The position numbers and the translations under genes were made by a program. Positions 14,708 to 18,927 of a stretch of 64,000 bases of DNA are shown here, piece by piece. Source of the stretch: Halomonas sp. I5-271120. GTDB lineage: Bacteria; Pseudomonadota; Gammaproteobacteria; Pseudomonadales; Halomonadaceae. Location: the NCBI RefSeq assembly GCF_030553075.1, contig NZ_CP130701.1, positions 496,001 to 560,000 on the forward strand, read 5' to 3'. Within the stretch, counting starts at the first letter, position 1, and every line of letters starts with the position of its first letter. Below the pieces are notes generated by a model. It saw only the letters and a program-made list of their open reading frames with translations, was not told where the DNA came from and did no database searches.

Positions 14708-14793
14708 GAGGCCCTCTCCTTGTTGGACATTTGCCAGGCATCATAACTGAGGCATCATGGCTGCTGGAATGCGCGCACAGGGAGCCCCACTGC

Positions 14794-16110
14794 ATGCCAC
14801 CAACCGAGATTTCACAGACCCGCCTCTACGAGTGGCTGACCGGCGATGACGACAGCCGGATGTGTAAGGATATTCCCGACTCCGCCTGCGAGGTGCAACC
14901 CACGAACTTCCTGCGCCATCTGATCGCCTCGCTCGGCAACAAGCTGGCCGACGAGCTGTCCAGTGCCCGCCTGGTGCTGCCCTGGCTGATGGGGGCGATC
15001 GGTGCACCGCTATGGATGGTGGGTCTGCTGGTCCCGATCCGCGAGGCCGGCGCCCTGCTGCCTCAGGTGTTCGTGGCCGGTTTCATACGCCATCAGGCGC
15101 AGCGCAAATGGACCTGGGTAGCCGGCGGGCTGATTCAGGCCGTGGCCGCTCTGCTGCTAGTCGCCCTCGCCCTGCTGGGTCAGGGCGGCCTTGGCGGCAG
15201 CCTGGTGCTGTTAGTGCTGATCGTGCTGTCACTGGCCCGCGGCCTGTCGTCGATCGCCACCAAGGACGTGCTGGGCAAGACCATCGCCAAGCAGCGCCGC
15301 GGCACCCTGATGGGCTGGAGCGGCAGCATCGCCGGCGGCGTGACCCTGGCCGCCGGTATCGTGCTAATGCTCTTCGATGACCGCCCCAGTGAGCTGGCCC
15401 TGGCGGTACTGATGGGCGTGGCGGCGCTTGGCTGGGGCCTGAACGCATTTTGCGCGGCCCTCATCGAGGAGGCGCCTGGTGCCGTGGAAGGCGGTGAGAA
15501 CGCCTGGGACAGCGTGCGTCAGGGCCTGCACCTGCTGCGCGAAGACCCGGCCTTCCTGCGCTTCAACCTGGCCCGCGCCCTACTGCTCTCCAGCGCCCTG
15601 GCCCTGCCCTACATCGCGCTACTGGCTCAGCAACGCAACGGCTCGGCCCTTGGCGACCTGGGCCTTCTGATCATCGTCTCGGGGCTTGCCAGCATGCTGG
15701 CAAGCCCGGTGTGGGGCAAGCGTGCCGATGCCTCGAGCCGGCGTGTGATGCGTGACGCCGGCCTCGCTGCCGCCATTTGCTGTGCCCTGGCGGCGCTGGC
15801 GGGCGGTCTTCCCGGCGCCTGGACGGCGACCCCCTGGCCCTACGCCCTGCTCTACGGGCTGTTGGTGATCGCCCATGCCGGGGTGCGCCTGGGCCGCAAG
15901 ACCTACGTGGTAGATCTCGCCGGTAGCGATCGACGTGCCCTTTATGTGGCGTTGTCCAATACGCTGACCGGCTTTTTGATGCTGCTGGTCGGTGGTCTGG
16001 TCGGCGCGCTCGCCCAATGGTTCGGCAGCGCCGTGCTGCTTGGGTTGCTTGCTGCCTGCGCGCTTGCCGCCGCGCTAACCGCTCAGGGCCTGCCCGAGGT
16101 CGAGGAGTGA
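14794..16110 (+). CDS. Major facilitator superfamily transporter
   Basis: 438 aa. A soluble N-terminus of about 50 residues precedes around 12 hydrophobic helices. Recognisable elements are the loop with RHQAQRKWTWV, GLSSIATKDVLGKTIAKQRRGTLMGW and ASPVWGKRADASSRRVM. The start at 14794 has GGGAG 9 nt upstream; the in-frame extension to 14731 crosses the divergent promoter region. Substrate unknown. The nearest neighbour on the same strand is the short LOV gene 108 bp downstream, but an inverted repeat between them suggests a separate promoter. Confidence 0.85.
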   Translation: MPPTEISQTRLYEWLTGDDDSRMCKDIPDSACEVQPTNFLRHLIASLGNKLADELSSARLVLPWLMGAIGAPLWMVGLLVPIREAGALLPQVFVAGFIRHQAQRKWTWVAGGLIQAVAALLLVALALLGQGGLGGSLVLLVLIVLSLARGLSSIATKDVLGKTIAKQRRGTLMGWSGSIAGGVTLAAGIVLMLFDDRPSELALAVLMGVAALGWGLNAFCAALIEEAPGAVEGGENAWDSVRQGLHLLREDPAFLRFNLARALLLSSALALPYIALLAQQRNGSALGDLGLLIIVSGLASMLASPVWGKRADASSRRVMRDAGLAAAICCALAALAGGLPGAWTATPWPYALLYGLLVIAHAGVRLGRKTYVVDLAGSDRRALYVALSNTLTGFLMLLVGGLVGALAQWFGSAVLLGLLAACALAAALTAQGLPEVEE

Positions 16111-16137
16111 ACGCAACACATTGAAATCTGGCAACCG

Positions 16138-16173
16138 CCTAGCCATGATAGAGCGATATACACCGTGGCTAGG
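16138..16173. promoter_or_regulatory. Inverted repeat upstream of the LOV gene
   Basis: CCTAGCCA (16138-16145) and TGGCTAGG (16166-16173) form an exact 8-bp inverted repeat with a 20-nt spacer containing an AT-rich GATATACAC, a possible -10 region. It lies 45 bp before the LOV gene. It may be an operator pair or a weak terminator of the MFS gene; there is no U-run. Confidence 0.4.
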
Positions 16174-16217
16174 CCATACCTACCCACACCCATAGGGTCG
16201 CGACAGGAACGCTTCGC

Positions 16218-16649
16218 ATGAAAAGACCGCCCATGATCAGCCCCGAGCTTCTGGAACGCATCATCGACGCCTCGGAGGACGGTATTGTCGTTGCCGAACG
16301 CGAGGGTGAGGAACACATCCTGATTTACGTCAATCAGGGGTTCGAACGGCTGACCGGCTATAGCACCGATGAGATCCTCTACCGTGACTGCCGCTTCCTG
16401 CAGAACGACGACCGCGATCAGCCCGGCCTCGCCCGCATACGCGATGCCATGATCGAGGATCGGCCCTGCCGCGAGATCCTGCGCAACTACAAGAAGGACG
16501 GCACCCTCTTCTATAACGAGCTGTCGATCACGCCGATGTACGACGAGCAGGAAGACATTACCTACTACCTTGGCGTGCAGAAGGATGTCACCGAGCGAGT
16601 CGAGGCCATCGCCGAGCTCGAACGCGTCAAGGGCACGGCCAAAGACTGA
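16218..16649 (+). CDS. Short LOV-domain blue-light photoreceptor-like protein
   Basis: 143 aa, consisting of a single PAS/LOV core (about 8-120) with short N- and C-terminal helices and no effector domain. The photoactive-site motif is ILYRDCRFLQNDDRDQ, with C58 at the position of the cysteine that forms the flavin adduct, and further LOV features IYVNQGFERLTGY, NYKKDGTLFYNELSITP and YLGVQKDVTERV. By memory this closely resembles the short LOV proteins of Pseudomonas putida (PpSB1/PpSB2), which also have YQDCRFLQ rather than GRNCRFLQ. Start 16218 has AGGAA 8 nt upstream. It probably senses blue light through FMN and acts through a partner; the partner is not apparent from the neighbours. Confidence 0.9.
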   Translation: MKRPPMISPELLERIIDASEDGIVVAEREGEEHILIYVNQGFERLTGYSTDEILYRDCRFLQNDDRDQPGLARIRDAMIEDRPCREILRNYKKDGTLFYNELSITPMYDEQEDITYYLGVQKDVTERVEAIAELERVKGTAKD

Positions 16650-16720: not shown

Positions 16721-16743
16721 GATGCTCGCCCAAGGCGAGCATC
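16721..16743 (+). other. Perfect 10-bp hairpin in the leader of the PA3496-family gene
   Basis: GATGCTCGCC, loop CAA, GGCGAGCATC. No U-run follows, so a terminator is unlikely; it sits between the predicted promoter and the ribosome-binding site and may stabilise the 5' end of the mRNA. Confidence 0.5.
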
Positions 16744-16781
16744 CGTTGCCATCTCTACATGGGGTCATGGGAGGACATCAC

Positions 16782-17024
16782 ATGAGCCGCAAACACCAAG
16801 TACACGACACGTCCGACGATGCCAATGATGATGTGATCTATGATGGGGATGTCGACGCGTTCATGGACGCCGTGAACGACAGTCAGTACACCCCCAGTCG
16901 TTCCTCACGCGCTGAAAACCTTCAGGCACGGCGCCGTCTCGAGAGCCTCTTGGAAGAACGTCGCCTCAAGCAGGTCATCGACGATGACTGGGGACTCGAC
17001 GCCGAGGAAGAAGAAGAAGAGTAA
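16782..17024 (+). CDS. Small acidic protein, PA3496 family
   Basis: 80 aa, strongly acidic, ending in a run of six Glu after WGLDAEE. The C-terminal block ARRRLESLLEERRLKQVIDD matches the conserved part of the PA3496 family of Pseudomonas-type proteobacteria (putative envelope-integrity proteins; from memory). The start at 16782 has GGGAGG 7 nt upstream; a longer in-frame reading from 16722 overlaps the leader hairpin. No signal peptide or membrane segment. Biochemical function unknown. Confidence 0.75.
   Translation: MSRKHQVHDTSDDANDDVIYDGDVDAFMDAVNDSQYTPSRSSRAENLQARRRLESLLEERRLKQVIDDDWGLDAEEEEEE

Positions 17025-17265: not shown

Positions 17266-18927
<1,662 letters not shown>

Follow-up and report, generated by a model that had tools for sequence, protein, structure and literature searches.

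A short LOV photoreceptor of Halomonas sp. I5-271120 and a LitR-like MerR regulator as its candidate partner

Background

The closest described relatives of the protein reported here are PpSB1-LOV of Pseudomonas putida (3sw1, 5j3w) and its relatives, which share with it a single LOV domain, an N-cap, a J-alpha segment and the motif DCRFLQ. Short LOV proteins more than 63% identical to PpSB1-LOV are also reported, with one strain excepted, from marine strains of the P. pertucinogena lineage (excerpts of PMC6922532). The closest regulatory system is that of P. mendocina, where, according to excerpts of PMC9758184, the lit protein PmSB-LOV binds the class II LitR regulator PmlR2 and inhibits its binding to DNA. 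In the same excerpts, the sites of PplR1 and PmlR2 follow the pattern T(G/A)TACA-N12-TGTA(C/T)A, the pmlR1 cluster holds genes for a photolyase, a short-chain dehydrogenase, an FAD oxidoreductase and UfaM, folE lies in the pmlR2 region, and a weak B12-binding_2 match is reported in both PmlR1 and PmlR2. The role of B12 is a matter of disagreement, class II LitR being stated as B12-dependent in excerpts of PMC11417400, contrary to PMC9758184. Our search of the open-licence PubMed Central literature, with subscription papers outside its scope, found no halomonad paper on a LOV/LitR system.

Here we analyzed a window of 64,000 nucleotides (the whole stretch of DNA under study, positions 496,001 to 560,000 of contig NZ_CP130701.1) from Halomonas sp. 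I5-271120, and followed a short LOV gene found in it through the rest of the genome and through 275 Halomonadaceae genomes. Through this comparison, a light sensor that seemed to be an orphan gains a definite candidate regulon (photolyase, folE, fasciclin) across halomonads. What emerges looks less like a novel type of switch than like a familiar, Pseudomonas-like LOV-LitR system, here in a halophile.

Results and discussion

A Pseudomonas-type short LOV protein in a halomonad

An earlier note on this DNA had described a stand-alone LOV/PAS reading frame of 143 aa, with the motif ILYRDCRFLQ, no effector domain and a likeness to the short LOV proteins of Pseudomonas, in a halophilic host. The ORF translation agrees with the note in coordinates, length and motif, and the gene is the following:

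16218..16649, + strand: short LOV protein gene, ATG start, 143 aa, identified by PAS models, solved relatives and flavin-site residues

A Pfam search of the product gave PAS models alone (five, the best being PAS_9 at E=2.4e-20), and the absence of an effector domain holds on that search. The best NCBIfam match is to the YtvA blue-light receptor family (E=1.1e-42), at 146 bits, which is under the cut-off of 250. Among solved structures, the top matches are Pseudomonas-type short LOV chains named 'Sensory box protein' (7r5n, E=4.2e-54; 3sw1, E=1.5e-53); PDB chains of the short LOV kind span 4e-54 to 4e-47, and the first other LOV protein, 8c05, follows at E=3.1e-30. Two Pseudomonas short LOV proteins with known structures are 63 and 64% identical to the query, and the alignment with the Pseudomonas chains runs end-to-end, the flanks being the N-cap and J-alpha only. 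Compared with PpSB1-LOV the query has five extra N-terminal residues, and its residue numbers equal those of PpSB1-LOV plus five; the adduct cysteine is Cys58, with its codon at 16389-16391. With match strength far above chance, the LOV assignment is confirmed, and by the E-values of the PDB matches the protein appears to have the Pseudomonas short LOVs, not other LOV proteins, as its nearest kin, which bears out the type proposed in the note. The supposed halophile does belong to the Halomonadaceae, and its nearest named relatives are of the genus Onishia, with the LOV proteins of O. taeanensis and O. niordana being 97% identical to the query. In short, the gene adds an unexceptional member to an established family of photoreceptors, from a bacterial group that has been little described.

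Matches to the short LOV protein at E<=1e-30 were found in 237 of the 275 Halomonadaceae genomes. Five of these are atypical, comprising large LOV proteins in G132, G133 and G246 and divergent short frames in G097 and G250, and clear short LOV relatives are present in 232 genomes. A short LOV sequence split over two frames was seen at G266:C1:2730428-2730840, in a genome that is 74% complete, and represents either a broken gene or a sequencing error.

A LitR-like regulator outside the window

A light switch with no evident partner nearby was the picture drawn at first, and locally it stands, as no LitR gene was found near LOV at any of 80 named halomonad loci (up to 6 kb on each side, some clipped at contig ends). 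Genome-wide it does not stand, because a LitR-like gene, together with an apparent regulon, is encoded 1.49 Mb from the LOV gene:

G000:C1:1999673-2000581, - strand: LitR-like MerR regulator, 303 aa, matched by MerR Pfam models only

Behind this gene, on the same strand, lie genes for a photolyase (an NCBIfam equivalog above cut-off) and for SnoaL-like, SDR, FAD oxidoreductase, DUF1365 and cyclopropane-synthase-like proteins, and an exact operator stands 92-115 bp upstream. Because the gene shares its operator and gene cluster with the Pseudomonas system, we describe the 303-aa protein as resembling class II LitR. Like the PmSB-LOV/PmlR2 system, as excerpts of its description present it, the present one combines a short LOV and a LitR-like MerR protein within one genome, has the same operator consensus and appears to target folE and a photolyase cluster. 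The two systems differ in number, with one LitR-like protein here and two or three in the P. mendocina comparison (same excerpts), and in arrangement, since the LOV and LitR genes are adjacent in P. mendocina, whereas they are far apart here and linked at none of the 80 named loci. We do not regard adjacency as defining, because the P. mendocina photolyase cluster likewise lies at a distance from the LOV gene (excerpts of PMC9758184).

The candidate partner shares the MerR DNA-binding domain with CarH / class I LitR, but gave no Pfam B12-binding match. Similarity to the CarH structure 5c8d extends across residues 4-243 (E=3.6e-18), the CarH model scores 93.6 bits, far under its cut-off of 400, and no B12-binding_2 match was returned by Pfam even though the CarH alignment crosses that region. 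B12-binding_2 is the four-helix bundle part of the B12 module, whose retention alongside a lost cobalamin-binding part marks class II. The loop histidine of CarH is found in 3 of 52 aligned rows. B12 binding by the LitR-like protein was rejected on these two grounds, the missing Pfam match and the unconserved histidine. A MerR-type LitR homologue that appears to have no working B12 site is encoded in this LOV-bearing genome, and its sequence would side with the view of PMC9758184 over that of PMC11417400 on B12, as far as the excerpts of both state it.

Operators and predicted regulon

This genome holds three exact matches to the operator, and none was found for the reversed-pattern control. 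One-mismatch operators number nine, barely higher than the six in the reversed control, and a lone weak operator therefore means little. Of the nine, one is followed by folE after 34 bp, and another separates a fasciclin gene from a gene for a 103-aa protein with no Pfam hit. Among 20 operator stretches (18 from relatives and two from this genome), hand-chosen from the matches listed and partly for similar-looking letters, the 18 exact sites of relatives fall at folE (7), at the fasciclin pair (8) and elsewhere (3). The operator between the fasciclin-domain gene and the divergent 103-aa gene recurs at L052, L182, L185-L189, L195 and L196, and the pair is an apparent conserved light target. A fasciclin operator is a feature of the present system that receives no mention for P. 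mendocina in the excerpts of PMC9758184. The other two exact sites in this genome (646738-646761 and 1697845-1697868 of G000:C1; L047 and L048) precede a chemoreceptor-type gene with an MCP signalling domain and an EI24/CysZ-type gene, respectively; neither recurs among the 18 sites of relatives, and each could be either a target particular to this strain or a coincidence.

Proposed mechanism and an alternative partner

We consider it probable that the short LOV protein, a predicted FMN binder, when lit, binds the LitR-like MerR protein and lifts repression of litR, the photolyase cluster, folE and the fasciclin gene. The LitR-like protein outside the window is, on its sequence features, a convincing candidate for the LOV partner, and the most likely function of the LOV protein, by analogy, would be that of a blue-light anti-repressor of the LitR-like regulon. 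Blue light would produce a cysteinyl-flavin adduct in the LOV protein, and the adduct would cause the helical ends of the LOV dimer to move. The lit protein would then bind the repressor encoded 1.49 Mb away, which, once LOV-bound, would leave its TRTACA-N12-TGTAYA operators, and the freed operators would allow litR itself, the photolyase cluster, folE and the fasciclin gene to be switched on, as a light-triggered photoprotection programme. What the genome itself contributes to this reading is the LOV family membership and key residues, the LitR-like gene, the predicted operators and the putative target genes. The rest would carry over from Pseudomonas: flavin binding, photocycle and dimer, the contact of LOV with LitR, and the direction in which regulation runs.

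It is unlikely, in our judgment, that the LOV protein signals instead to a sensor kinase, a diguanylate cyclase or another MerR protein, with the LitR-like regulon being lit from elsewhere. Such a partner would fit the 29 of 275 genomes with a LitR match and without a LOV match, and this genome harbors additional LOV-type domains, of which two retain the cysteine, and seven MerR matches in all; against it, the biochemistry of P. mendocina and the genetics of P. putida indicate LitR (excerpts of PMC9758184), and the operator is found at the same targets here. The further LOV-like domains lie at 436218-436601 (L003), 327769-328140 (L004) and 2208306-2208680 (L002) of G000:C1, within frames of 717, 1335 and 935 aa. 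The first has both Cys and Gln, the second has Cys (in GRNCRFLQ) with Val at the Gln position, and adduct formation is not expected of the third, in which Cys is missing.

LitR persists in genomes without LOV

Returning to a LOV-LitR partnership, the co-occurrence of the two proteins was assessed with thresholds of E<=1e-30 for LOV and E<=1e-25 for LitR. Across the 275 genomes, 233 have both, 4 have LOV only, 29 have LitR only and 9 have neither (Fisher p=3.5e-6, ignoring descent), in a table that counts G132, G133, G246, G097 and G250 as LOV matches, includes distant LitR matches (33-40% identity in five LOV-less g16 genomes) and contains 18 LOV-less genomes identified by elimination. The surroundings of litR (13 kb, in one case 11.5 kb, and 20 kb for this genome) were compared between 24 LOV-less and 28 LOV-bearing genomes. 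The former are 24 of the 29 LitR-only genomes, with G140, G243, G257, G264 and G266 (66-79% complete) left out, and setting the five g16 genomes aside brings the LOV-less counts to n=19; the latter consist of this genome, 20 genomes of genus code g8 and seven from across genera, chosen from listed coordinates.

The SDR-to-CMAS block lies near litR in 3/19 LOV-less vs 21/28 LOV-bearing genomes, and a photolyase gene lies near it in 14/19 vs 28/28. Allowing one mismatch at most, an operator lies no more than about 350 bp from litR in 16 of the 28 LOV-bearing genomes, being absent from that interval in the remaining 12, and in 12 of the 19 LOV-less ones. The LitR tree requires a minimum of 10 changes in LOV presence, and among six independent pairs drawn from its well-supported branches, the block varies with LOV in 3.3 on average and against it in 0.0 (median p 0.25); the correlation between block and LOV is not significant on independent pairs and is no more than suggestive. 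Columns of the LitR alignment also differ between LOV-bearing and LOV-less genomes, these being groups related by descent.

LOV is dispensable to the LitR-like regulator, given the LitR-only genomes and an operator still upstream in 12 of the 19 examined, and this weighs against a simple obligate pair. Because LitR persists without LOV, there is room for a second input to the regulator, and we put forward, tentatively and as a possibility we ourselves find doubtful, that the LitR-like regulator may be the lasting core of a halomonad light/DNA-repair regulon, with the short LOV protein as a removable input and a second signal reaching the regulator, to which LOV would add. On this view LOV has disappeared time and again, in some cases with remnants left behind, whereas litR has remained, in many cases together with its operator and photolyase. 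Genomes that naturally lack LOV are a convenient place to look for such an input.

BLUF proteins, which occur in 13 of the 275 genomes, were considered as a substitute sensor and rejected, as only three LitR-only genomes have one (G157, G161 and G162, all of g16) and the LitR matches in these are the distant ones. In the g16 genomes (L239-L243), the LitR-like gene of 33-40% identity lies near a photolyase-like gene, without a short LOV and with BLUF in 3/5, and BLUF input to that distant regulator is conceivable.

Neighboring genes and the promoter of the LOV gene

The genes around the LOV gene in the window are the following:

14731..16110, + strand: MFS-type transporter gene, start codon uncertain, PF07690 above cut-off
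16722..17024, + strand: PA3496-family small protein gene, start codon uncertain, NF046101 above cut-off
17266..18927, + strand: ettA, translational throttle ABC-F protein, NCBIfam equivalog above cut-off

That the LOV protein is a local light switch acting on these neighbors, i.e. the MFS transporter, the PA3496-family protein and EttA, seems very unlikely to us. The order MFS - LOV - PA3496 - ettA is mostly kept in the 80 named halomonad loci, with an MFS gene ending at most 400 bp upstream on the same strand in 66, and the PA3496-family gene and ettA downstream in 69 and 73, respectively, which is what a local switch would favor, but shared gene order may be plain inheritance and the LOV gene has a predicted promoter of its own. 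Moreover, 11 of the 19 LOV-less, LitR-bearing genomes have lost LOV but retain MFS near ettA, as seen in the ettA surroundings, which covered 1.5 kb upstream and are thus uninformative on MFS-ettA order in the other eight. Two genomes carry remnants of the LOV gene, both between the MFS and PA3496-family genes. The one in G203 covers residues 102-130 and lies at 820-906 of L335, on the ettA strand, and the one in G190 covers residues 1-18 and lies at 913-966 of L342; they appear to mark LOV loss in place. The LOV gene can disappear by itself, and its neighbors apparently need no LOV.

Two features were recognized directly upstream of the LOV gene:

16121..16149, + strand: predicted sigma-70-like promoter of the LOV gene, TTGAAA-N17-CATGAT, pattern conserved in relatives
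16137..16174, no strand: inverted repeat with 9-bp arms (16137-16145 and 16166-16174), judged incidental

Of 30 relatives, 29 have a loose -35/-10 pattern with a spacer of 16-18 upstream of LOV, and with a 17-base spacer the pattern is present at 60/80 named loci vs 66/4000 random windows. The repeat had been noted previously as an 8-bp one; it is indeed there, with arms of 9 bp rather than 8. Repeats of this sort abound: the window has 61 perfect 9-bp inverted pairs with a loop of 3-40, and 10 mononucleotide shuffles average 16.7. Among same-genus sequences the left arm is kept in 7/7 and the right arm in 4/7, with no compensating change, and the left arm overlaps the -10 element of the predicted LOV promoter. 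For these reasons a role as hairpin or operator was rejected, and we read the repeat as probably incidental, rather than a maintained operator. No LitR operator (<=1 mismatch) was found within 300 bp before the LOV gene at any of the 80 named loci. A 3-mismatch site here was likewise discarded as a LitR operator; it is present in two of seven same-genus sequences, with a third having a 2-mismatch site.

Flavin site and expected dark recovery

Of 2299 homologues, 120 were listed, and in all of these C58, Q62, N90, N100 and Q121 are invariant; the latter four align with Q57, N85, N95 and Q116 of PpSB1-LOV, which are flavin contacts according to excerpts of PMC5314338. The four-arginine FMN-phosphate cluster of PpSB1-LOV is incomplete in the query, which keeps three of the four (R54, R61 and R70 in PpSB1 numbering) and has Leu in place of R66. 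Position 66 is Leu in 118 of the 120 listed homologues, and likewise in the solved chain 7r5n; position 61 is Arg in 110/120. We take the four-arginine cluster to be a trait of slow-recovering members, rather than of the whole short LOV family. It is hardly credible that the LOV protein is a poor flavin binder or without a working photocycle, for which one could point to the replacement of a phosphate-binding arginine by Leu and to W619_1-LOV, a close PpSB1-LOV relative that is only about 10% flavin-loaded (excerpts of PMC5314338), as the cysteine and flavin contacts are invariant in all 120 listed homologues, just as selection for photochemistry predicts.

The substitution R66I shortens the recovery of PpSB1-LOV from 2471 to 23 min (excerpts of PMC6047819), and because R66 is Leu in the query, we expect that its dark recovery would be quick, in the range of tens of minutes or less. 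The wide variation of adduct lifetimes among short LOV homologues, as asserted in the earlier note, is correct, and PpSB1-LOV and W619_1-LOV, which have all four arginines, nevertheless recover in 40 h and 7.7 h, respectively (excerpts of PMC5314338).
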